A stretch of 32,360 nucleotides of DNA, taken from contig OMZC01000032.1 of assembly GCA_900315395.1 (NCBI GenBank), positions 1 through 32,360 of the forward strand, read 5' to 3'. The notes under the pieces were generated by a model. That model was not told the DNA's origin. It ran no database searches and worked only from the letters and a program-made list of their open reading frames with translations. Numbering within the stretch: the first letter of the stretch is position 1; the number at the start of each line of letters is the position of its first letter. Source of the DNA: an uncultured Gammaproteobacteria bacterium (GTDB lineage: Bacteria; Pseudomonadota; Gammaproteobacteria; Enterobacterales; Succinivibrionaceae). The translations under genes and the position numbers were made by a program. This document shows, piece after piece, positions 18,939 through 29,805 of this stretch.

Positions 18939-19844
18939 CTATTTTTGATTGATCACTTTTAAAGCCATGTTAGCAGCACTTGTCCTATTTTCTACGAGCA
19001 TTTTCTCAAAAACGCTCTCTAGATGCTTGTTTACAGTTCTTGGGCTTATCCCAAGAATCATTGCTAAGTCTTTATTAGATTTACCTTGGCTTACCCAATA
19101 CAGAACCTCACCTTCACGCTCTGTTAGAGAAAAGTGTTCACACAGTAATTTTGACTCATCTACTTTAGGTTTATCTTCAGAAATACTGAATATAAACAGA
19201 TCGTTCTTCTTGTTGTCGTATTTTAATGTTAACTTAGGATCAGAGTCAGGAATGGTTATCTCCATTTTATCTTCAAGCTTTGCAACGATCTTTTTAAAGA
19301 AGCACGGAAGAGTGCTGACAATATCGATCTTTTTTATTCCTGAGTTATCAAGTAATTGTCCTGCTTTTGGAGTCATCCACTTGATATTACCATTATTGTC
19401 TACAGCAATAGAGCTCAAGCCTACGCTATCTAAGAGTTCTCGAGACATAGTAATTTGACGAGATTTCTTTATGTGAGTTTTTATTCTTGCAACTAGTTCT
19501 TTTATGCGGATTGGTTTTTGAATGTAATCAACAGCACCACTGTTAAAACTAGATTCAACGTTATTCTCAGAATCTAGTCCTGTCATAAAAATTACAGGAA
19601 CAGATTCTAAATCAGGATTTTGTTTTAGCGTTTTGCAAGTTTCAAAACCATCCATTTCAGGCATTACTGCGTCAAGTAAAATGAGATCTGGTTTGATCTT
19701 TTTACAAATTGAAACTGCTTGCATACCACTTAAAGCAACTAATACAGAAAATCCCTCATTGTCTAATGCATCGTTAAGCATAGAAACGGTATCAGGTGAA
19801 TCATCCACAACTAGTACTATTTCATCTTCGTTTTCGTCGTTCAT
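18939..19844 (-). CDS. NarL/LuxR-type response regulator with central PAS-like region
   Basis: A 301-residue DNA-binding response regulator. The receiver domain (about 8-125) has the acidic pair Asp14/Asp15, phospho-acceptor Asp58 in LLDAVMPEMDG, Thr88 and Lys110 in QKP. A short PAS-like region (about 138-215) follows. The C-terminal LuxR helix-turn-helix contains SLTEREGEVLYWVSQGKSNK and GISPRTVNKHL. It begins 4 nt after the end of the permease-kinase gene, so the two are almost certainly a cognate pair. Its probable targets are the 16-bp inverted repeats before the urtA-like gene and amiF, whose 7-2-7 layout matches that of NarL-family sites. Confidence 0.92.
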   Translation of the reverse strand: MNDENEDEIVLVVDDSPDTVSMLNDALDNEGFSVLVALSGMQAVSICKKIKPDLILLDAVMPEMDGFETCKTLKQNPDLESVPVIFMTGLDSENNVESSFNSGAVDYIQKPIRIKELVARIKTHIKKSRQITMSRELLDSVGLSSIAVDNNGNIKWMTPKAGQLLDNSGIKKIDIVSTLPCFFKKIVAKLEDKMEITIPDSDPKLTLKYDNKKNDLFIFSISEDKPKVDESKLLCEHFSLTEREGEVLYWVSQGKSNKDLAMILGISPRTVNKHLESVFEKMLVENRTSAANMALKVINQK

Positions 19845-19848
19845 TTTG

Positions 19849-22800
19849 TTATTCCAGATGACTCTTTAGTTCGTCAAATTTCATTTCATCAGCTAAAGAT
19901 AGTAAAAGATCTTTTTGTTGTTGAGAAATGAGGTTATTGGTAAAACACTTTTCTGTAAGTTTTTTTATTCCGCTAATATACCCTATTGAAATGTACTGCT
20001 CTAATTTATCCTTTTCTAAAGGCGGTAATTTTACTGTTTTGGTGCAGTCTGAATTGAAATTGAGCACCTTATTTTCGGTAGCTTTCTGTGCAACTTCATG
20101 TTTGTTTTCTGAGTCAGATGTAGAAAATTCTTGGACCTTTGTAGGTTCATCTCCCTTATATATATAATCAACAGGTAGCACTCTAGCAATAGCATCAAAA
20201 AGACGTTTTTGCTTAAAAGGTTTGATTATGTAGCCATTGTGTAGTGCGCGAATATCTTCAGGAACGTTACCTTCACTAGCCTCAGCTGACACCATAATAA
20301 TTGGCGCTCTTATTCCTAAAGCTCTTAACTGTTGAAGCAAATACCAACCATTGTGAACAGGCATTGCAACATCTACTAAAAACAGTGAGTATGAGTTAAG
20401 TTCTTCTTTAGTTTTTAATAGTACTGAGTCTGGACAGTCAGCGGTGTCCACTACAAAACCTACAGGTTTTAGTATTGATACAACTAAGTTGCGATGATCC
20501 TCGTTATCATCAACTTCTAGTATTTTGAAAGGGTTTGTTTGTGAATTACTATAGCCACAAACGATTTTTTCGTGTTTAGAAAGATTTGGATCAGCAAAGG
20601 CTCGAGACAATTTTATTTTTACAGAAAATGTTGTACCTACGCCATGAATGCTGTTAACTTCAAGTTCGCCTCCCATAATGGTTACAAGCAGATTGGTAAT
20701 AGTTAATCCTAATCCTGTTCCTCCTGCTTTCTTTTTAGCTTCATCAAGTCTGTTAAAAGGCTCAAAGATCTTTTTTAAATCGTTCTCCTTTATACCAATA
20801 CCGCTGTCTTTAATGATAAATTCTGCTACTTCATTTCTGTATTTAACTGTTAAATTTACACCTCCTACAGAAGTGTACTTAACAGCGTTGGATAGCAGAT
20901 TTATCAAGATCTGTCTTAATCTTTTTTCGTCTGTATAGACAAGTTGAGGTAAGTTACCTGTTATGTCAGAGGTGAACTTCAAATCCTTTTGAGATGCTTT
21001 ATCTGAGAAGTAATCGATAAGCTCATCAATAAGTTGCTTTAGGTTTAAGTTTTCATAATGAAGTTCAAGTCTGCCAGCTTCAATCTTAGAAATATCAAGA
21101 AGTCCTTCAATGAGATCTGCTAGATAATCAGCTGAACGACACATGATCCTAATAGCCTTTTGGTGTTTAGGCGGAATATCAGATGACTGAGATAGTATTT
21201 GGCCATAGCCTGTGATTGTGTTCAGAGGTGTTCTTAATTCATGAGATATTCCGGAGAGATAGCGACTTTTTGCTCTATTAGCCGCATCTGCATTTTTTTT
21301 AGCTTCTGAAAGGAGTTTTTCTGTTTTTTGCCTTTCATTAACTTCATTTATCAAAAGCAAATTTTGAGTATGAAATTCCTCTTGTGTTCTTTTTCTGCTT
21401 TCCTCAACAAGCATGAACATCAAAGAAAAGATACAAAATATGAACTCAAATAGTAAAAAGCACAGTGTAAATCCTGAAAGTAAAGTCGCTTTGTCAATTT
21501 GAGAAAACTTGTATTCAACAGTGTAGTAAGATGCGGTTATTACCGTGAAATTAGCAATCGAATATACTAAAAGATGGCTTAAAAATCGCAATATTCTCTT
21601 TGCAATTGTTGTTCTTAATTGCTCTGGAAGAATTCTTTCAAGTTGATACTGTATGTTTGCATGTTTTTTACACTCATCTTCACAACAAGAATCAAGAGTG
21701 CAGCACAAAGAACAAATGTACCCACCATATCTAGGACAATAACAAAGATCTTGAGAGTCAAAGGTGTTTTTACAGATGGAACACTCATGTTGACCGTGTA
21801 TGACGTCTACTTTTCTTGCTAGGTAATATTTTCCATGAGTTATAAAAGCCAAGCTAGGGCATAGCACAAAGGTTAGAACTAGAGTAAATGGAGCGCAAAA
21901 TGCTTCTAAAAATTGTCCAAAAATTCCAAAATAAGCAAGATATCCTAACAAAGACGATATCAGCATGGAGCCAAATCCAACCGGATTTATGTCATACAGA
22001 TAAGCTCTTTTAAACTCGATCCCTTTAGGACTTAAATGAAGTCTTTTATTGATGCTCAGATCGGCTGCTATAGTGCCACACCAAGCTACAGCTACGATTG
22101 CATATAAGTTAAGAACAGATGTAGCAATTGAGTAGATACCATAGCATGTAAGAATGTAGGCAATAATTACATTAAAGAATACCCATACCACACGACCAGG
22201 ATGTGTATGAGTTAATCTTGAGAAGAAATTTGACCAAGCTAAAGATCCTGCGTATCCATTGGTAACGTTAATTTTAATTTGAGAAAGGCCCACAAAAGCT
22301 ACCGTAAGAAGAAGCGCCACTGTGTTAGCATAAGATCCTAAAAATGAGGTTGTTTCATCAAATACCTTAAGGTACATAAAATTAGGATCAATAGCATTTT
22401 TAAAAGGTGTCTCGATGCTTATAAGGTAGACTCCAAGAAATGCTCCTATCAGTATTTTTATTCCGCCTAACAGTATCCAACTAGGTCCTGCGATTAAAGT
22501 TCCTAAGTATCTGGCTTTCTTATTCTCTTTAGTTTTGTTTGGCATAAATCTCAAGTAATCAACTTGCTCTCCAATTTGAGAAATCAGAGCCATCAGTATT
22601 GATAAAGAGTAGCCAAAAAAGCATAAATTGAAATCTGAACTAGAGCTTAAAGATAGACTCAAGTGAGAATCTTTAAATAGTAATAAAACACCTGCTATAG
22701 AAAGAATTTGTAATATTGCCCAAACAGGTTGAGTGTAGCGTTGAAACTTACTGATGAAGCTAAATCCATTCAATATAAGGGGAATAATCACAAGTGACGT

Positions 22801-23259
22801 TACAAGATAACCTATCCATAGAGGCAAATTAAAGGCTATCTGCAACATATTAGAGAGAATAGTTGATTCAAAGGCTAAAAAGATAAATGTAAACGAAGCA
22901 TAAACAAGCGAGGTTACAGATGAGCCTAGATAACCAAAGCCAGATCCTCTTGTAAGAAGATCGATATCAACATTGTATTTTGCAGCGTAAAAAGCAATAG
23001 GTTTACTAACTAAAAAGATAAGGGGGAGCGCTACTAATAAAGCAAAAAAGAGGTGGTTAAATCCGTAAAAGATAGCAATATTAGCTCCAATAACTTCAAG
23101 TGCTAGAAAGCTAATTGAACCTAAGGCAGCGTTCGATACTGTCAAAGGGTTTCTCTTTCGAGCATTTTCAGCTGTATAGCGTAAAGAAAAATCTTCTAAT
23201 GTTTGGTTAGCTACGTATCTGCTATAAACTCTTCTTGCTTTAATTACCGGCTGTACCAA
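19849..23259 (-). CDS. NCS1-type permease fused to hybrid histidine kinase
   Basis: The protein has 1136 residues. The N-terminal 470 or so form a multi-spanning NCS1 (purine/cytosine permease-like) transporter. A Cys-rich segment follows (493-530: ten Cys, including CSIC, CYC, CSLCC, CC), then two transmembrane helices (about 557-620), a coiled linker, the phospho-accepting domain with His673 in SHELRTPL, and an ATPase domain (Asn791, DSGIGI 818-823, GGTGLGL 847-853). A receiver domain (Asp917/918, Asp963, Lys1013) and an α-helical tail end the protein. It probably senses a transported nitrogen compound and signals to the adjacent NarL-type regulator. The start is TTG at 23259 with AAGGAG 6 nt upstream. 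It is divergent from the urt-like operon, which it probably controls. Confidence 0.93.
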   Translation of the reverse strand: MVQPVIKARRVYSRYVANQTLEDFSLRYTAENARKRNPLTVSNAALGSISFLALEVIGANIAIFYGFNHLFFALLVALPLIFLVSKPIAFYAAKYNVDIDLLTRGSGFGYLGSSVTSLVYASFTFIFLAFESTILSNMLQIAFNLPLWIGYLVTSLVIIPLILNGFSFISKFQRYTQPVWAILQILSIAGVLLLFKDSHLSLSLSSSSDFNLCFFGYSLSILMALISQIGEQVDYLRFMPNKTKENKKARYLGTLIAGPSWILLGGIKILIGAFLGVYLISIETPFKNAIDPNFMYLKVFDETTSFLGSYANTVALLLTVAFVGLSQIKINVTNGYAGSLAWSNFFSRLTHTHPGRVVWVFFNVIIAYILTCYGIYSIATSVLNLYAIVAVAWCGTIAADLSINKRLHLSPKGIEFKRAYLYDINPVGFGSMLISSLLGYLAYFGIFGQFLEAFCAPFTLVLTFVLCPSLAFITHGKYYLARKVDVIHGQHECSICKNTFDSQDLCYCPRYGGYICSLCCTLDSCCEDECKKHANIQYQLERILPEQLRTTIAKRILRFLSHLLVYSIANFTVITASYYTVEYKFSQIDKATLLSGFTLCFLLFEFIFCIFSLMFMLVEESRKRTQEEFHTQNLLLINEVNERQKTEKLLSEAKKNADAANRAKSRYLSGISHELRTPLNTITGYGQILSQSSDIPPKHQKAIRIMCRSADYLADLIEGLLDISKIEAGRLELHYENLNLKQLIDELIDYFSDKASQKDLKFTSDITGNLPQLVYTDEKRLRQILINLLSNAVKYTSVGGVNLTVKYRNEVAEFIIKDSGIGIKENDLKKIFEPFNRLDEAKKKAGGTGLGLTITNLLVTIMGGELEVNSIHGVGTTFSVKIKLSRAFADPNLSKHEKIVCGYSNSQTNPFKILEVDDNEDHRNLVVSILKPVGFVVDTADCPDSVLLKTKEELNSYSLFLVDVAMPVHNGWYLLQQLRALGIRAPIIMVSAEASEGNVPEDIRALHNGYIIKPFKQKRLFDAIARVLPVDYIYKGDEPTKVQEFSTSDSENKHEVAQKATENKVLNFNSDCTKTVKLPPLEKDKLEQYISIGYISGIKKLTEKCFTNNLISQQQKDLLLSLADEMKFDELKSHLE

Positions 23260-23330: not shown

Positions 23331-23346
23331 TACGTAATTTGACGTA
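23331..23346 (+). promoter_or_regulatory. NarL-type 7-2-7 inverted repeat upstream of urtA
   Basis: TACGTAATTTGACGTA is an inverted repeat of two heptamers (TACGTAA and, on the other strand, TACGTCA) separated by 2 bp. It matches 14 of 16 bases of the site upstream of amiF and lies at the same distance from the -10 region. It is the probable binding site of the neighbouring response regulator. It lies between the divergent kinase gene and urtA, so it could act on both. Confidence 0.75.
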
Positions 23347-23391
23347 GTCGCATAGAGCATTCTGCACATTCAGTCACAACTTTTCCTTTGT

Positions 23392-23397
23392 GATAAT
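23392..23397 (+). promoter_or_regulatory. Predicted -10 element of the urt operon
   Basis: GATAAT, followed by GA, with no good -35 hexamer 17 bp upstream (TTCAGT). A weak -35 fits an activator-dependent promoter. The predicted start near 23404 puts the regulator site at about -66, a class I position. The operon leader would be about 33 nt. Confidence 0.6.
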
Positions 23398-23436
23398 GAC
23401 ATCAAATCGTTATTAACCCACAGAGGAGAAAACATC

Positions 23437-24663
23437 ATGGAAAAACATACCAAGATGAACTTCATATCAAAGGCTCTGACAGCTTTGGCTTTAAGTGCAA
23501 CTGTCTCAACCTCAGCTTTTGCAGCAGACAGCGTAAATACCACAGGTCTTGCGGTTACCGACACTACTGTAAAAGTAGGTATTCTGCATTCAATCACTGG
23601 CACCATGGCTTTATCAGAGGCCGGTTCCGTTCAGGCAGAAAAACTTGCCATTGATCAGATCAACAAACAGGGCGGTGTGCTAGGTCGTAAGATTGAAGTG
23701 GTACAAGAAGATGGTGCTTCTGACTGGCCTACCTATGCAGAAAAAGCTCAGAAACTTATTGTAAATGATAAAGTAGCTGCAGTGTTCGGTTGCTGGACTT
23801 CTGCATCAAGAAAGGCCGTTCTCCCTATTTTTGAGCAATATAACAACATGCTGTTTTACCCAACTTTTTATGAGGGTCTAGAACAGTCTCCAAACGTGAT
23901 CTATACAGGTCAGGAAGCCACTCAGCAGATATTAGCAGGTCTTGATTGGGTAATGAAAGAAAAAGGTGCAAAGACCTTTTATCTAATTGGCTCTGACTAT
24001 ATTTGGCCTCGTACTTCTTTCAAGATTGCAAGAAAGCATATTGAAAAGAATGGTCTAAAAGTTTTAGGTGAAGAGTATTACCCATTAGGTCACACTCAGT
24101 TCAACTCTGTTATCAACAAGATCAAATTAAAGAAACCTGATGTGATCTTCTCAATTGTCGTAGGTGGCTCTAATGTAGCTTTCTACAAACAGTTAAAGGC
24201 AGCTGGTATCGATCTTAAGAAAGAAAAGCCAATGCTTCTATCAACCTCTGTTACAGAAGATGAAGTGCTAGGTATTGGTGGTGAGAACTATGAAGGTGCT
24301 TACTCAGTAACCAAGTACTTTGAAAGCATGGATAACGAGAACAACAAAAAGTTTGTCGCAGACTTTAAGAAAATGTGGGGCGACAAGATTGTTATCGGTG
24401 ATGTTACAGAGTCAGCTTACTTAGGTCCTTGGTTATGGAAGGCTGCTGTTGAAAAGGCAGGTTCTTTTGATATCGACGCTATTAAGAAAACATTACCAGG
24501 TACTGTATTCGATGGTGCACCAAACGGTTCTGTAAAGGTTCATGAAAACCACCACCTGTATATGAAGACAGTAATTGGTCAAGGTCAAAAAGATGGTCAG
24601 TTTAAGGTTGTTTATGAGTCAGGTGTGATTGAACCTAACCCATTCCCAGAGGGATATCAATAA
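23437..24663 (+). CDS. urtA: Urea/short-chain amide ABC transporter, substrate-binding protein
   Basis: The periplasmic binding protein of a branched-chain amino acid-type ABC transporter, 408 residues. A Sec signal peptide with a cut after AFA (about residue 29) precedes the mature domain. Features of the UrtA/FmdD group are visible: VKVGILHSITGTMALSE, GGVLGRKIEVVQEDGASDWP, VFGCWTSASRKAVLP, and a C-terminal NHHLYMKT-like segment. GAGGAG lies 8 nt before the ATG. This family binds urea or short amides; sequence alone does not separate the two, and the nearby formamidase favours formamide. A GC-rich hairpin follows the gene, likely giving the binding protein more expression than the membrane parts. 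Confidence 0.9.
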   Translation: MEKHTKMNFISKALTALALSATVSTSAFAADSVNTTGLAVTDTTVKVGILHSITGTMALSEAGSVQAEKLAIDQINKQGGVLGRKIEVVQEDGASDWPTYAEKAQKLIVNDKVAAVFGCWTSASRKAVLPIFEQYNNMLFYPTFYEGLEQSPNVIYTGQEATQQILAGLDWVMKEKGAKTFYLIGSDYIWPRTSFKIARKHIEKNGLKVLGEEYYPLGHTQFNSVINKIKLKKPDVIFSIVVGGSNVAFYKQLKAAGIDLKKEKPMLLSTSVTEDEVLGIGGENYEGAYSVTKYFESMDNENNKKFVADFKKMWGDKIVIGDVTESAYLGPWLWKAAVEKAGSFDIDAIKKTLPGTVFDGAPNGSVKVHENHHLYMKTVIGQGQKDGQFKVVYESGVIEPNPFPEGYQ

Positions 24664-24690
24664 CAGAAAGACTGATTAGCCATCAATCTA

Positions 24691-24711
24691 AAAGGGGGTA
24701 AATCCCCCTTT
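24691..24711 (+). terminator. Intra-operon hairpin between urtA and urtB
   Basis: AAAGGGGG (24691-24698) and CCCCCTTT (24704-24711) form a perfect 8-bp stem with a 5-nt loop (TAAAT). Only three Ts follow, so it is probably a partial terminator or a 3' stabilising stem for the urtA message. Confidence 0.75.
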
Positions 24712-24736
24712 ATAAAATCTTATAGGAGCAAATCTT

Positions 24737-25663
24737 ATGTTTTCAGATTACAGTTTTGAGGATCTTGCCTCCATTTTCGCCATGCAAGGCTTCGCAGGTC
24801 TATCCCTGTTCTCAGTTTTCCTTCTTATGGCATTAGGATTAGCCATTATCTTTGGTCAGATGGGCGTTATCAATATGGCTCATGGTGAGTTCATGATTTT
24901 AGGAGCCTATACTACTTATCTGACTTCTCATTTTTTTGAAAATTATTTACCTTCTCTATTTCCAATTTATTTCTTTGTAGCTTTGATCTTGTCTTTCATC
25001 TTCACAGGATTATTAGGAGCCCTGATAGAGTATTTGATGATAAGACATCTCTACTCAAGACCTTTGGATACTTTACTTGCTACATGGGGCCTGAGCTTAA
25101 TTTTGCAGCAGACTTATCGTTCAATATTTGGAGCTCGTGAAGTTGGTGTAACCCTACCAGATTGGCTAATGGGTTCAGTAAACCTGACTGACAGCATCGA
25201 AATCCCAATCAACGGTCTTTTTGTTTTGTGTCTAACCATTTTCGTAACTTTCTCAGTTTGGTACATCATGTATCGCTCAAAGCTAGGAAGACAACTAAGA
25301 GCTGTAATTTTAAATCGTCCTATGGCCGGTGCTGTTGGTATCAATACAGGTCTCGTTGACAGACTGACTTTTGGTTTGGGCTGTGGAATTGCAGGTGTAG
25401 CAGGTTGTGCATTCACAATGATTGGTTCAACCGGTCCTACAGCAGGCCAGCTCTATATTGTTGATACTTTCTTAGTTGTTGTATTTGGTGGTGCAGGAAC
25501 TTTAATTGGAACAATTGCCTCTGCTTTTGGTATTGCTCAGGCTCAATCAGTAATGGAGTTCTTTATGTCTGGTTCTATGGCAAAAGTTCTAACTCTATTG
25601 TTTGTAGTTGGCATTCTAATGATTAGACCACAAGGTCTGTTCTCTGTAAAAGTTCGTCACTAA
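24737..25663 (+). CDS. urtB: Urea/amide ABC transporter permease (UrtB-like)
   Basis: An inner-membrane permease of the LivH/UrtB type, 308 residues with about eight hydrophobic segments. Family motifs are MALGLAIIFGQMGVINMAHGEFMILGAY near the N-terminus and RAVILNRPMAGAVGINTGLVDRLTFGLGCGIAGVAG, the cytoplasmic loop that contacts the ATPases, near residue 200. It lacks the long periplasmic N-terminal extension seen in many UrtB proteins, so it is the short form. It pairs with the UrtC-like permease 10 nt downstream. TAGGAG precedes the ATG. Confidence 0.9.
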   Translation: MFSDYSFEDLASIFAMQGFAGLSLFSVFLLMALGLAIIFGQMGVINMAHGEFMILGAYTTYLTSHFFENYLPSLFPIYFFVALILSFIFTGLLGALIEYLMIRHLYSRPLDTLLATWGLSLILQQTYRSIFGAREVGVTLPDWLMGSVNLTDSIEIPINGLFVLCLTIFVTFSVWYIMYRSKLGRQLRAVILNRPMAGAVGINTGLVDRLTFGLGCGIAGVAGCAFTMIGSTGPTAGQLYIVDTFLVVVFGGAGTLIGTIASAFGIAQAQSVMEFFMSGSMAKVLTLLFVVGILMIRPQGLFSVKVRH

Positions 25664-25673
25664 GGAGAATACT

Positions 25674-26873
25674 ATGTTTAAACGAGATCCTATTTATTCA
25701 GTTCCGTTGATGGGAAGAAGAACATTCTTAAACTTCATTGTCCTTGCAGTTCTACTTTTAATCATAATGCCTGCATCTTTGGAAGTTTTCCGTCTGAACC
25801 TGTTAGGAAAGTACCTAAGTTATGCTTTTGTGGCTATTGGTTTAGTACTGTGTTGGGGATATGGTGGCATTTTAAGTTTAGGACAGGGTATCTTCTTTGG
25901 CTTGGGCGGATATTGCATGGCAATGTTCTTAAAGTTAGAAGCTTCAACTCCAGAGGCAACTGCTATTCAGTCAACTCCAGGTATTCCTGATTTTATGGAT
26001 TGGAACCAGCTTACAGAGTTGCCTTGGTTTTGGGTTCCTTTTAAAAGTTTCCCTCTAACTCTTATTTTGATGTTCGCTGTTCCTACCGTTTTTGCATACA
26101 TCTTCGGTCTATGTATGTTTAAACGTAGAGTTGGTGGTGTGTACTTTTCAATTATCACTCAGGCTATTGCAGCTATTTTGACAATTTTAATTATCGGTCA
26201 ACAAGGTTACACAGGTGGTGTTAATGGTATTACCGATCTTAGAACCTGTCTTGGCATTGATATTAGAACAGACGAAGCAAAATTAGCTCTCTACTACATT
26301 TGTGTTATCTGTCTACTGTTAGCTATGTTTGCTTGCCATTTGCTTTTGCGAGGAAAAATTGGTCACTTGCTGTTAGCTATCCGTGACGAGGAAGAAAGAG
26401 TTAGATTCTCAGGATATGACGTAGCAAACTTCAAGATCTTTATTCTGAGTTTCTCTGCAATGCTATCAGCTGCAGGTGGTGCTCTATTTACCTTGCAAGT
26501 AGGCTTTATGTCACCAAGCTTTGTAGGCATTGTAGCTTCAATTGAAATGGTTATCTTTTGTGCTGTAGGTGGAAGACTATCAATCTTCGGTGCTATTTAC
26601 GGAACCATTATTGTTAATTACGCTAAAACTGCTGTTTCAGAAAACTTCCCTGAGTTATGGCTTTTTGCAATGGGCGCGCTGTTCATTGGTGTAGTTATGT
26701 TCTTCCCAAGAGGTCTAGCAGGCTTATATGAGGATTATCTAAGTCCATATCTTTATAAAGGACTTAAATATCTGTTAACTCCAGAAAATGAGGAATCAGC
26801 AAAGAGGACTCCTCCTGGCAAATTGCTTTATGCAATGCTTGTAAACAAGATCCATGAGTACAAAGGAGCTTAA
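25674..26873 (+). CDS. urtC: Urea/amide ABC transporter permease (UrtC-like)
   Basis: The second inner-membrane permease (LivM/UrtC type), 399 residues, highly hydrophobic. Motifs include VLCWGYGGILSLGQGIFFGLGGY in the N-terminal half and the ATPase-contact loop LLAIRDEEERVRFSGYDVANFK near residue 235. A periplasmic loop of about 40 residues (around 95-135) is typical of UrtC. It lies 10 nt after urtB, with AAGGAG upstream, and 1 nt before the ATPase gene, so all are translated from one transcript. Confidence 0.9.
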   Translation: MFKRDPIYSVPLMGRRTFLNFIVLAVLLLIIMPASLEVFRLNLLGKYLSYAFVAIGLVLCWGYGGILSLGQGIFFGLGGYCMAMFLKLEASTPEATAIQSTPGIPDFMDWNQLTELPWFWVPFKSFPLTLILMFAVPTVFAYIFGLCMFKRRVGGVYFSIITQAIAAILTILIIGQQGYTGGVNGITDLRTCLGIDIRTDEAKLALYYICVICLLLAMFACHLLLRGKIGHLLLAIRDEEERVRFSGYDVANFKIFILSFSAMLSAAGGALFTLQVGFMSPSFVGIVASIEMVIFCAVGGRLSIFGAIYGTIIVNYAKTAVSENFPELWLFAMGALFIGVVMFFPRGLAGLYEDYLSPYLYKGLKYLLTPENEESAKRTPPGKLLYAMLVNKIHEYKGA

Positions 26874-26874
26874 T

Positions 26875-27678
26875 ATGAAAGAGATTTTTGATAGTAGCTT
26901 ACCTGAAGAATCAAGTGGCTTAGCTGGTAACAGAAGTTTAAGTAAAGATTATGCTCTGTACATTGAAGGTCTTACCGTTTCTTTTGATGGCTTTAAAGCT
27001 GTAGATAATTTGTCTTTATACGTTGATGAAGGCGAGATCCGTGTAATCATCGGACCAAATGGCGCTGGTAAAACAACAGTTTTAGACATGATCTGCGGTA
27101 AAACAAAATCTACCTCTGGTTCAATAAAGTTTCATGACAAAGAGCTTACAAAACTCAAAGAGCATGAAATTGTAGATGCAGGTGTTGGTAGAAAATTCCA
27201 AAACCCTTCTATATATGAGGCTTTGACTGTATTTGAAAATTTGGAATTGTCCTATCCAAAAGGTAAAAAAGTTTGGGGAGCTTTATTCTTTAAACGTAAT
27301 AAGGAGATCATCAAAAAGGTAAAAGAAGTAGCAGATACCATCTTTTTAGGCGATAAGCTCAACATGAAGGCTTCTCTTCTAAGCCATGGTCAAAAGCAGT
27401 GGTTAGAAATTGGAATGCTGCTTATTCAAAATCCATCACTGTTAATGCTTGATGAACCTGTAGCTGGTATGTCGGTTGCTGAGAGAAAGCAAACAGCAGA
27501 ACTTTTAAAGAAGATCATTAAAGGTCGTTCTGTAATTGTTATTGAGCATGACATGAAGTTTGTTGAAGACATTGCAGACAGAGTAACTGTAATGCATCAA
27601 GGAAAATTGCTTGCAGAGGGCAGCATGGAGAGCATTAAGAAAAATCCTAAAGTTATAGATGTCTACTTAGGACAATAG
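26875..27678 (+). CDS. urtD: Urea/amide ABC transporter ATPase (UrtD-like)
   Basis: The first nucleotide-binding subunit, 267 residues. Walker A is GPNGAGKT (60-67), the signature is LSHGQKQWLEIG, and Walker B is LLMLDEPVAGM, followed by the His switch in VIEHDM. The ATG at 26875 is chosen because AAAGGAG lies 8 nt before it and it falls 1 nt after the urtC stop; an in-frame ATG at 26854 overlaps urtC and lacks an SD. The signature has His in place of the second Gly of LSGGQ, as is common in UrtD-type proteins. The N-terminal 25 residues form a polar extension. Confidence 0.92.
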   Translation: MKEIFDSSLPEESSGLAGNRSLSKDYALYIEGLTVSFDGFKAVDNLSLYVDEGEIRVIIGPNGAGKTTVLDMICGKTKSTSGSIKFHDKELTKLKEHEIVDAGVGRKFQNPSIYEALTVFENLELSYPKGKKVWGALFFKRNKEIIKKVKEVADTIFLGDKLNMKASLLSHGQKQWLEIGMLLIQNPSLLMLDEPVAGMSVAERKQTAELLKKIIKGRSVIVIEHDMKFVEDIADRVTVMHQGKLLAEGSMESIKKNPKVIDVYLGQ

Positions 27679-27689
27679 GAGATTTTATT

Positions 27690-28379
27690 ATGTTAAAACT
27701 TGAAAATTATTCTGTTGCTTACGGTGAAAGTTCTGTAATTAAAGATCTTAACCTTGAAATTAAAGACAATGAGATTGTTGCCCTATTAGGTCGTAATGGC
27801 ATGGGAAAAACTACTCTCATGAAATCTCTTATTGGCATGATCAAAAGCTGTGGAGGAAAAGCCTTTTTAGGTAAGGATGAAATTGAAAATCTAAAAAGCT
27901 TTGAGAGGGTAAAATCTGGTATTGGCTTTGTTCCTCAAGGAAGAATGATCTTCTCTACAATGAGTGTAAAAGAGAATATTGAAACAGGATTAACTGTTAC
28001 CGGTTCTAATGTAATTCCTGAGGACTTGTATGTTAGTTTTCCAATTCTAAAAGAGTTTGCTAAGCGTAAAGGCGGTAATTTATCAGGAGGTCAGCAACAG
28101 CAGCTTGCTATTGCAAGAGCCTTAGCTTCAAATCCTAAGTTGTTATTGTTAGATGAGCCAACTGAGGGTATTCAGCCAAATATCATTAAAGATATGGCAA
28201 AGACACTTAGAAAAATTCGTGATGACAGGGGACTTACAATATTTGTTTCAGAGCAAGTATTAAGTTTTGCGCTTGATGTCGCAGATAGAATCGTGGTGAT
28301 GGAAAAAGGAGCCATTGTTTACGATGCACCACGAGACGAGACTGATGCTGAACTTGTTACCAAGTTCCTTTCTGTATAG
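27690..28379 (+). CDS. urtE: Urea/amide ABC transporter ATPase (UrtE-like)
   Basis: The second nucleotide-binding subunit, 229 residues, of the LivF/UrtE type. Walker A is GRNGMGKT (34-41), the signature LSGGQQQQLAIARAL, Walker B LLLLDEPTEGIQP. The GIQP sequence after Walker B is typical of UrtE. It lies 11 nt after urtD with AGGAG upstream and is the last gene of the operon, with a strong terminator after it. Confidence 0.92.
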   Translation: MLKLENYSVAYGESSVIKDLNLEIKDNEIVALLGRNGMGKTTLMKSLIGMIKSCGGKAFLGKDEIENLKSFERVKSGIGFVPQGRMIFSTMSVKENIETGLTVTGSNVIPEDLYVSFPILKEFAKRKGGNLSGGQQQQLAIARALASNPKLLLLDEPTEGIQPNIIKDMAKTLRKIRDDRGLTIFVSEQVLSFALDVADRIVVMEKGAIVYDAPRDETDAELVTKFLSV

Positions 28380-28413
28380 TGCTATTTTCAGGTAGATTGT
28401 GTCTGAAAACTTT

Positions 28414-28450
28414 GACAGGTAAATTTGAGAGAGGTTTACCTGTCTTTTTT
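28414..28450 (+). terminator. Rho-independent terminator of the urt operon
   Basis: GACAGGTAAA (28414-28423) pairs perfectly with TTTACCTGTC (28435-28444), with an 11-nt loop, followed by six Ts (28445-28450). It separates the transporter operon from amiF. Confidence 0.92.
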
Positions 28451-28507
28451 ATCAAGAGTGTACAACCTCTTATTCTCTATAAATTTCCAAGTTATCCCCA
28501 TTTGATC

Positions 28508-28633
28508 TTAAAACTTACTTTTACAATAACTTAAAGCTGAGTCATCAATCCAAATCTTCTTATTGGTACCTATTTTAAAGTCATTACTAATGTAGTGATT
28601 GAATGCCTCATAGTTAGCATAAATACAACGAAA
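28508..28633 (-). pseudogene. Possible 3' remnant of an unidentified gene
   Basis: On the minus strand a 41-codon frame without a good start reads like a natural protein end: YANYEAFNHYISNDFK, then KIWIDDSALSYCKSKF and a stop. Its amino-acid composition is protein-like and not repetitive. It is preceded by a stop codon and has no start or SD. It lies within the 409-nt gap between urtE and amiF. No family was recognised. It may be the tail of a lost gene, or chance. Confidence 0.3.
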
Positions 28634-28645
28634 TTAAGATCTAAC

Positions 28646-28661
28646 TACGTAAAATGACGTA
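28646..28661 (+). promoter_or_regulatory. NarL-type 7-2-7 inverted repeat upstream of amiF
   Basis: TACGTAAAATGACGTA differs from the urtA site only in the two positions 8 and 9 at the centre, where base contacts are usually weak. Its centre is 53.5 bp before the GATAAT of the amiF promoter, exactly as at urtA. It is the second predicted target of the response regulator. Confidence 0.75.
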
Positions 28662-28706
28662 TCCGTATAGTCAATTCTGCCAATTTTTTACCCATAAGCA
28701 ATCTTA

Positions 28707-28712
28707 GATAAT
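28707..28712 (+). promoter_or_regulatory. Predicted -10 element of amiF
   Basis: GATAAT followed by GA, the same octamer as at the urt promoter, again without a good -35 (TTTTTT 17 bp upstream). The predicted start lies near 28719, leaving a leader of about 70 nt that contains a GAACTCAAGTTC-type inverted repeat (28713-28724). Confidence 0.6.
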
Positions 28713-28788
28713 GAACTCAAGTTCAGAGGGAAATGAACCTTGAACTGAAAGTTTTTCTTTATCTACATCAATATATGAGGTGATCATT

Positions 28789-29805
28789 ATGGGTAGCACT
28801 GGTTCAGTTAGTTCTTGGGAAGAGGCTCTATTAGTTGCAGCAATTCAGTATCCTGTTCCTGTAGTAAATGGTCCTGAAGATATTCAGGTTAACGTTGACA
28901 GAATCTGCAAAGCAGTAGCTTCAACAAAAGCTGGTTATCCTGGATTAGATTTGATTGTATTCCCTGAGTATTCAACACAGGGTCTAAATACAGCAATTTG
29001 GTCATACGATGAAATGTTGTTGAGCTTAGATAGTCCAGAGGTTGGTCAGTTCAAACAGGCATGTAAAGATGCAGATGTTTGGGGCGTGTTCTCAATCATG
29101 GAAAAGGATCCTGAAGGTGGTCATCCATTTAACACAGCAATTATCATTAACAACAAGGGTGAAATTGCACTTCACTATAGAAAGTTACAGCCATGGGTTC
29201 CAGTTGAGCCTTGGGCACCAGGTAATTTAGGTATGCCTGTATGTGATGGTCCTAAGGGCTCAAAGCTAGCAGTATGTATCTGTCATGATGGTATGTTCCC
29301 AGAGTTAGCTCGTGAAGCTGCTTATAAAGGCGCTAATGTTTACATTAGAATTTCTGGTTACTCAACACAGGTTAACGATCAGTGGATCATTACAAACAGA
29401 ACTAATGCATGGCAGAACCTCATGTATACAGTTGCTGTTAACCTTGCAGGCTACGATAACGTCTTCTACTACTTTGGTGAAGGTACTATCTGCAATTACG
29501 ATGGTAATGTTATTCAGCAAGGTCAGAGAAATCCTTGGGAAATTGTTACCGCGGAGTTATTCCCTCGCTTAGTGGATAAGGCTCGTGAGAACTGGGCATT
29601 AGAAAACAATATCTTCAACTTAGGTTGCCGTGCATATGTGGGCAAACCAGGTGGTGAAAAGGCTAACTACTTAACATGGGTTAAGGATTTAGCAGAAGGT
29701 AAGTACAAGCTACCATGGGATGAGAAAATTAAGATCCGCGATGGTTGGAAGTACTATCCAAATGGAGGTCAGTATGGCCCAATGCCAGATAAGTTCAAGA
29801 AATAG
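28789..29805 (+). CDS. amiF: Formamidase (AmiF-type, nitrilase superfamily)
   Basis: This enzyme hydrolyses formamide to formate and ammonia in the cytoplasm. The protein has 338 residues and is very close to the Helicobacter AmiF pattern along its whole length: [52 protein letters not shown] and [15 protein letters not shown]. The catalytic triad is Glu60, Lys132 and Cys165. The start is the ATG at 28789, because GAGGTG (28777-28782) is its SD; a GTG at 28780 is part of that SD and is not the start. Strictly amide-specific AmiE has a different C-terminal region, so the formamidase call is favoured. It has its own promoter and terminator but shares the regulator site of the urt operon. Confidence 0.93.

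Follow-up and report, generated by a model that had tools for sequence, protein, structure and literature searches.

Introduction

In the CrbS/CrbR (MxtR/ErdR) acetate system, the LuxR-type regulator CrbR requires an imperfect inverted repeat just upstream of the -35 position to activate the genes of a transporter and a catabolic enzyme, and the CrbS sensor has an SLC5 symporter and a STAC domain (accessible passages of PMC5715377). Among urea-type importers, a second urt-like cluster of Bradyrhizobium lies beside a PF03069 gene and an aliphatic amidase gene, and amide transport was suggested for it in the SIMBAL paper (passages of PMC3098086). In Ectopseudomonas guguanensis G3, the locus tag of fmdA comes directly before those of urt operon III (passages of PMC13296017). 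Here we analyze a stretch of 32,360 nucleotides, hereafter the window: contig OMZC01000032.1, positions 1 to 32,360, of assembly GCA_900315395.1, from an uncultured gammaproteobacterium of the family Succinivibrionaceae in the order Enterobacterales. It holds a urtABCDE operon, the formamidase gene amiF, and the genes of a hybrid sensor kinase and a response regulator. Two 16-bp palindromes stand before urtA and amiF. We conclude with high confidence that they are dimer sites of the adjacent regulator, which would activate both promoters through two dimers and thereby co-induce import by urt and hydrolysis by amiF.

A literature search over titles and the beginnings of abstracts returned no paper on this box or regulon; most subscription papers lay outside its coverage, and the unpublished status is unproven. 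The gene neighborhood itself was met once, as annotation (passages of PMC13296017).

Results

Two elements shared by the urt and amiF promoters

Direct reading of the sequence bore out what a first-pass annotation of the window had reported: a 16-mer lies before urtA and another before amiF, and in both promoters 53.5 bp separate its center from the first base of the -10 region GATAATGA (Table 1). Each 16-mer has the 7-2-7 layout assigned to it, two inverted heptamers with a 2-bp spacer. The -35 sequences are as poor as stated there: at 17-bp spacing, TTCAGT in the urt promoter matches TTGACA at three of six bases and TTTTTT in the amiF promoter at two, and a sigma-70 scan called no promoter at either site.

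The annotation also held the two promoters to be otherwise unrelated, which is wrong. At a shift of 22 bp downstream of the 16-mers, the promoters share 11 of 16 bases (binomial P = 5e-4), a level of identity reached by 137 of 200,000 random 16-mer pairs from the window. Outside the elements, identity is at background: 13/60 upstream, 7/23 from the second element to the -10 region and 10/37 downstream. Because the proximal elements are this similar and the remainder is at background, the promoters are related through two shared elements plus the -10 region, rather than through one. A recent duplication without regulatory meaning would also leave the 16-mer, the second element and the -10 region common to both promoters; the background identity outside the elements and the recurrence of the elements in other genera and classes make this explanation highly improbable.

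Occurrence in the assembly and co-occurrence in the family

The assembly (2,480,842 bases in 125 contigs, estimated to be 92.6% complete) contains the core TACGTNANNTNACGTA exactly at two places, the urt and amiF sites, in agreement with the earlier view that chance is unlikely. Six more sites have one mismatch, and four of these six lie inside open reading frames. The near-exact form is thus not frequent genome-wide, and in its exact form it stands only before urt and amiF. At up to two mismatches, 99 sites were found, fewer than with a reversed-pattern control (144); at the genome scale, information therefore comes from the near-exact form alone. Counts of a looser pattern, TRCGYNANNTNRCGYA, fail to separate genomes with and without the regulator among the 56 genomes of the family, and the analysis was therefore confined to sites that are near-exact or lie in a promoter context.

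A full-length regulator occurs in four of the 56 family genomes (labeled here G000, the window genome, and G032, G045 and G047). The amidase of this type and a UrtA of at least 74% identity are found in the same four genomes; some UrtA-like gene is present in 17 of the 56. A box precedes each of the four amidase genes, 107-118 bp ahead of the point where the alignment begins. The box is exact in the window and has one mismatch in G032 and G045; in G047, whose amidase is 37% identical and closer to AmiE, the box TACGCATAATTGCGTA has three mismatches to the strict pattern and matches the loose pattern fully. The G032 amidase lies on a different contig (L200) from the regulator. Fifteen other UrtA-like genes of the family, all distant, served as a control: 14 belong to genomes lacking a full-length regulator and one is a second copy in the window genome. 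None of them has the box at up to one mismatch, and one (L212) has it at two. The second copy of the window genome (L219, G000:C66:10265-11347; 42% identity) is probably under other control, since no box was found before it.

A fifth regulator match in the family, in G034, comprises the receiver only. That genome, in which no full-length regulator was found, has nine exact matches to the loose box pattern, compared with one for the control.

Conservation across proteobacterial classes

By count from the list of matches, the full-length regulator is present in 36 of 394 genomes of the order. With the 80 best named contigs included, 97 of 117 regulator loci also contain the kinase and UrtA within the stretch, in both Gamma- and Alphaproteobacteria, including Rhizobium, Agrobacterium, Alcanivorax, Marinobacterium, Methylomicrobium and Halomonas relatives. 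For urtA genes near the regulator, the 400 bp preceding the UrtA alignment could be used in 96 cases. The strict box occurs in 70 of them at up to two mismatches (24 exact, 42 with one mismatch and 4 with two). By chance, this level is reached in about 1.5% of cases when 400-bp windows are drawn at random from these loci (1903 windows) and in about 0.8% of 2784 cases with shuffled palindromes. Within 2.2 kb upstream of urtA, the loose form TRCGY-N6-RCGYA is present in 88/96 loci, compared with 10/96 for the reversed control, and one form or the other precedes urtA in 92/96. In 11 loci, 1.1-1.5 kb separate the chosen upstream site from urtA; in one of these (L074) the intervening gene encodes a BBP2-type porin. 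The box is thus conserved before orthologous urtA genes as well as before the four family amidases. The presence, spacing and conservation of the sites, together with the link between site and regulator, are computational observations.

The box tracks the regulator. Among order genomes without a full-length regulator match, none of 34 urtA upstream regions has it at up to two mismatches, the best having three. This argues against assigning the sites to a general NarL-type nitrogen or nitrate regulator instead of the adjacent pair. Such a regulator would account for the 7-2-7 layout, which is that of NarL, and would suit the global nitrogen control under which nitrogen-scavenging genes often stand. 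Its site would be expected to be common genome-wide, yet the assembly has only two exact copies. We consider a general regulator very unlikely.

Additional boxes were seen in a few loci. In two of them (L092:10909 and L098:10917), a box with a partner at +22 directly follows the regulator gene. The genes after these boxes encode 229 residues matching PF09694 (Gcw_chp) and 222 residues without a Pfam match; they are likely extra targets. Two further loci, L057 (G255) and L058 (G169), carry regulator relatives of 44-45% identity and have no adjacent full-length kinase match or urt operon in the stretch. Each contains a loose-form box (L057:12650, L058:7605), and they may represent paralogous systems.

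Promoter geometry

The spacing between box and -10 region was explored in the 63 promoters whose sequence reached far enough (60 urtA, 3 amidase). Hexamers resembling a -10 pile up at 53.5 bp (26: 24 urtA, 2 amidase) and 31.5 bp (23) from the box center, compared with a mean of about one per offset; a further seven lie at 89.5 bp. The same two peaks appear in the 42 non-redundant urtA promoters, with 21 at 53.5 bp and 13 at 31.5 bp against a mean of 0.91. The 53.5 class comprises 19 promoters, all gammaproteobacterial, and 11 of the 12 promoters in the 31.5 class are of the Rhizobium type. The two offsets differ by 22 bp, or two helical turns.

The same distance separates the two elements within gamma-type promoters. 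In 25 of these promoters, a second match to the box scores highest, among all shifts, at +22 (z 4.5), and palindromy also peaks there, with 3.36 of 8 half-site pairs compared with an average of 2.03. The consensus reads about TGcGNNatTcNNCgaA-T. Two fair copies are present in L163 and L066, and in L148 two loose-form sites lie exactly 22 bp apart. The proximal copy ends where a -35 element would begin, and its position is that of the sole strong copy in Rhizobium-type promoters. A second site upstream was not found in alpha-type promoters, where the best shift was +14 (z 3.5). Some of them (L104, L145) have a conserved TTTGC stretch after the single box and C-rich sequence before it.

These positions bear on whether the regulator would activate or repress. 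In a repressor circuit, it would block the promoters until its ligand arrives, and sites near the -35 can in principle act in this way. However, a box centered near -65 and a proximal element that ends before the -35 occupy activator positions, and with such poor -35 sequences the promoters would seem to need an activator. A parallel is the ACTU motif needed for activation by CrbR, located at -52 to -36 (passages of PMC5715377). We therefore regard repression as unlikely.

Several results weigh against two-dimer activation by the adjacent regulator. Both box forms are missing before urtA in 4 of the 96 loci (L083, L129, L135, L164). Regulator-bearing genomes also supplied six additional UrtA copies; an exact site precedes that of L255, and the other five lack the box. 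Because most sites sit in the same region between kinase and urtA, common descent accounts for part of the box conservation; descent alone is unlikely, given the amidase promoters, the amidase on a separate contig in G032 and the urtA copy of L255. The four family genomes amount to about three independent cases, since G032 and G045 are closely related and their promoters nearly identical. As for geometry, 11 of the 42 non-redundant promoters fall in neither offset class, and the distance of 53.5 bp is not exact everywhere: it is 54.5 in the urt promoters of L021 and L022, 52.5 in that of L024 and 50.5 in the L024 amidase promoter. The second site is degenerate, with a mean log-odds of -8.7 compared with +23.3 for the strong site, and no clear second site was found in the promoters of L024 and L255.

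These last two observations would also be expected if a single dimer were enough and the element at 22 bp were part of the core promoter or a contact of RNA polymerase. The location of the element just upstream of the -35 position and the alpha-type promoters, in which a single site 31.5 bp upstream of the -10 seems to be enough, agree with this possibility. The palindromic nature of the second element, with its maximum at exactly +22, and the paired copies in L148, L163 and L066 speak for a second dimer, and the single-dimer explanation appears the less probable of the two, though a serious one.

The regulator and the sensor kinase

The regulator unites a receiver domain and a GerE helix-turn-helix (HTH) in one protein, as is characteristic of the LuxR/NarL type. 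Its phosphorylation residues (D14, D15, D58, T88 and K110) are invariant in 21 aligned sequences. Binding of the inverted repeat by a regulator dimer would fit both the anatomy of the site and its association with the regulator. The middle region of about 100 residues (approximately 130-230) has no Pfam match; conserved W and T-P residues suggest a folded domain, perhaps PAS-like, which is only a guess. In the recognition helix of the L024 (G047) regulator, SPRTVNKH is replaced by SPRTVTKF, and TACGCA half-sites occur in both boxes of G047. In this single case, the protein and its site may have covaried.

The N-terminal 620 residues of the kinase gave no Pfam match to a permease (NCS1 included) or to STAC at E values up to 10, and a profile of residues 1-640 had no sequence match in the PDB at E up to 1. 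An AlphaFold model of residues 1-640, built with 25 sequences, reached a mean predicted local distance difference test (pLDDT) of 81.4 and a predicted template modeling score (pTM) of 0.83. In a Foldseek search with this model, the first five PDB matches were all NCS1 transporters (CodB and Mhp1), with template modeling scores by target of 0.77 for CodB and 0.68 for Mhp1; symporters of the SSS type ranked below them (5nva 0.52, 5nv9 0.56). The model thus predicts an NCS1-like fold for the sensor domain. We limit the assignment to the fold because neither Pfam NCS1 nor any PDB sequence matched, and by sequence the domain is not an NCS1 member. A CrbS-type SLC5/STAC sensor was considered and rejected, as NCS1 is ahead of SSS in fold and no Pfam permease or STAC match was obtained.

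Between the permease-like domain and the kinase core lies the pattern CxxC...C...CSLCC...C...C. Its eight cysteines (residues 493, 496, 508, 516, 519, 520, 526 and 530) are invariant in 25 of 25 aligned kinases, and this linker is possibly a metal or redox site.

Amidases and two classes of UrtA

UrtA proteins near the regulator differ in their company. Where UrtA is at least 60% identical to that of the window, an amidase is present in 21 of 28 loci (FmdA in 11, AmiE in 8, AmiF in 2). The seven amidase-free loci of this class include five with less than 1.4 kb beyond urtE, L148, which stops inside urtA, and L021, whose genome has its amidase on another contig. Below 60% identity, no amidase was found in 69 loci within stretches of at most about 20 kb; UreD occurs in 4 and a BBP2-type porin in 9 of these. 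This distribution suggests that the amidase-linked class carries amides as well as or instead of urea. NCBIfam gives both classes the same name, urea transporter.

In the first-pass annotation, an amide was proposed as the signal of the permease-kinase. We do not adopt this, since the same kinase-regulator pair also adjoins urt operons without an amidase, in the 69 loci above; urea or nitrogen status could equally well be sensed.

Gene organization of the window

The kinase and regulator genes lie upstream of urt and are divergent from it. All five UrtABCDE subunits of the urea-type ATP-binding cassette (ABC) transporter score above their NCBIfam cutoffs and are encoded in one operon. The hairpin after urtE suggests that amiF is probably a transcription unit of its own, so that the amiF box is an independent occurrence.

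Table 1. Coordinates of the genes and promoter elements in the window
Feature	Position	Strand	Basis
Response regulator, 301 residues: receiver, middle region of ~100 residues, LuxR/GerE HTH	18939..19844	-	Pfam Response_reg 100.8 bits, GerE 68.2 bits
Hybrid sensor kinase, listed as 1136 residues: predicted NCS1-like permease domain, Cys-rich linker, HisKA, HATPase, receiver	19849..23259	-	Pfam HisKA/HATPase_c/Response_reg
Distal (strong) palindromic site, urt promoter	23331..23346	+	TACGTAATTTGACGTA = TACGTAA-TT-TGACGTA; one of two exact sites in the assembly
Proximal weaker second site, urt promoter	23353..23368	+	TAGAGCATTCTGCACA; 22 bp downstream of the 16-mer, abuts the -35 position
-10 region GATAATGA, urt promoter	23392..23399	+	Direct read; -10-like hexamers peak at offset 53.5
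urtA, substrate-binding protein	23437..24663	+	NCBIfam TIGR03407 530.7 bits, cutoff 492.75
urtB, permease (short form)	24737..25663	+	TIGR03409 411.2 bits, cutoff 250.3
urtC, permease	25674..26873	+	TIGR03408 442.9 bits, cutoff 296.2
urtD, ATPase	26854..27678	+	TIGR03411 378.6 bits, cutoff 304.1
urtE, ATPase	27690..28379	+	TIGR03410 308.5 bits, cutoff 285.8
Intrinsic terminator-like hairpin after urtE, 13-bp stem, T6	28414..28444	+	z -2.87; separates urt from amiF
Distal (strong) palindromic site, amiF promoter	28646..28661	+	TACGTAAAATGACGTA = TACGTAA-AA-TGACGTA; direct read and assembly scan
Proximal weaker second site, amiF promoter	28668..28683	+	TAGTCAATTCTGCCAA; 22 bp downstream of the 16-mer
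-10 region GATAATGA, amiF promoter	28707..28714	+	Direct read
amiF, formamidase	28780..29805	+	NCBIfam NF009803 601.1 bits, above equivalog cutoff 406

Discussion

The small regulon of the adjacent regulator proposed in the first-pass annotation, comprising import and hydrolysis, is supported by the conservation of the site, by its absence from the 34 urtA upstream regions of order genomes without a full-length regulator match, by the four family genomes that have the regulator, the amidase and a close UrtA in common and by the box at each of the four amidase genes. The original observation holds and is stronger than claimed. Two things escaped it: the additional element at a shift of 22 bp downstream and the spread of the association over proteobacterial classes.

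From these data we infer regulator binding, activation, cooperativity and a ligand of the sensor, arranged as follows. The NCS1-permease-like hybrid kinase would phosphorylate the adjacent LuxR/NarL-type regulator. A first regulator dimer would occupy the strong distal palindrome, at about -65 if the -10 hexamer starts at -12, and would help a second dimer onto the weaker palindrome two helical turns downstream. Abutting the -35 position, the second dimer could contact RNA polymerase and offset the poor -35 sequence. The separate urt and amiF units would in this way be induced jointly once a small amide, urea or a need for nitrogen is signaled by the sensor. Distant bacteria that have the same sensor-regulator pair carry this site before the corresponding genes, so import and breakdown are probably turned on jointly by a single, undescribed switch.

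On a wider scale, we lean towards a widespread and so far undescribed proteobacterial module in which an NCS1-like kinase with a cysteine-rich linker, possibly binding metal, and a LuxR-type regulator control the scavenging of small amides and urea through the near-invariant box TACGTCA-N2-TGACGTA, with two dimers 22 bp apart in gamma promoters and one proximal dimer in Rhizobium-type promoters. The targets of such a module would be the ABC importer, an FmdA, AmiE or AmiF amidase and, in some lineages, outer-membrane proteins. If this is true, the same regulator family acts from two positions exactly two helical turns apart, and the split between 31.5 and 53.5 bp is a natural experiment on a LuxR-type activator at two positions. 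It would also make the regulator, box and targets of a nitrogen-scavenging system of Gamma- and Alphaproteobacteria open to test, and tell apart two UrtA classes, tying the amidase-linked one to a dedicated sensor.

Several known systems resemble parts of the window. The heptamer of NarL is TACYYMT. The window shares with NarL-type promoters the inverted 7-2-7 heptamers and the LuxR/GerE HTH of the regulator; it differs in its half-site TACGTMA, its local target set and the extra middle region of about 100 residues in the regulator. Like the amide variants of UrtABCDE, the window has all five subunits above the NCBIfam cutoffs; the passages of PMC3098086 on the amide-type urt cluster of Bradyrhizobium do not deal with regulation. 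In the loci studied here, the UrtA class of at least 60% identity is linked to amidases and the other class is not. Urt operon III of E. guguanensis G3 also combines urtABCDE with a LuxR-family two-component regulator and a hybrid kinase, but in the passages of PMC13296017 this is annotation only, with no site or regulon.

Two systems share the overall circuit. In Sinorhizobium fredii, RpuS/RpuR likewise joins a permease-kinase and a regulator in the control of an importer, although its sensor is of the SLC5/STAC type and its target is the pyruvate symporter MctP (PMC9100948). An assignment of the window box to ACTU-type motifs of the CrbR system was rejected, as an ACTU motif such as TACTACCATCGTCGAAT differs by eye in its inner half-site from TACGTCA-N2-TGACGTA (passages of PMC5715377). 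CrbS/CrbR itself is similar in pairing a permease-like hybrid kinase with a LuxR-type regulator (passages of PMC5715377). Unlike it, the window system has a predicted NCS1-like permease domain followed by a linker with eight invariant cysteines, and its targets serve urea and amides.

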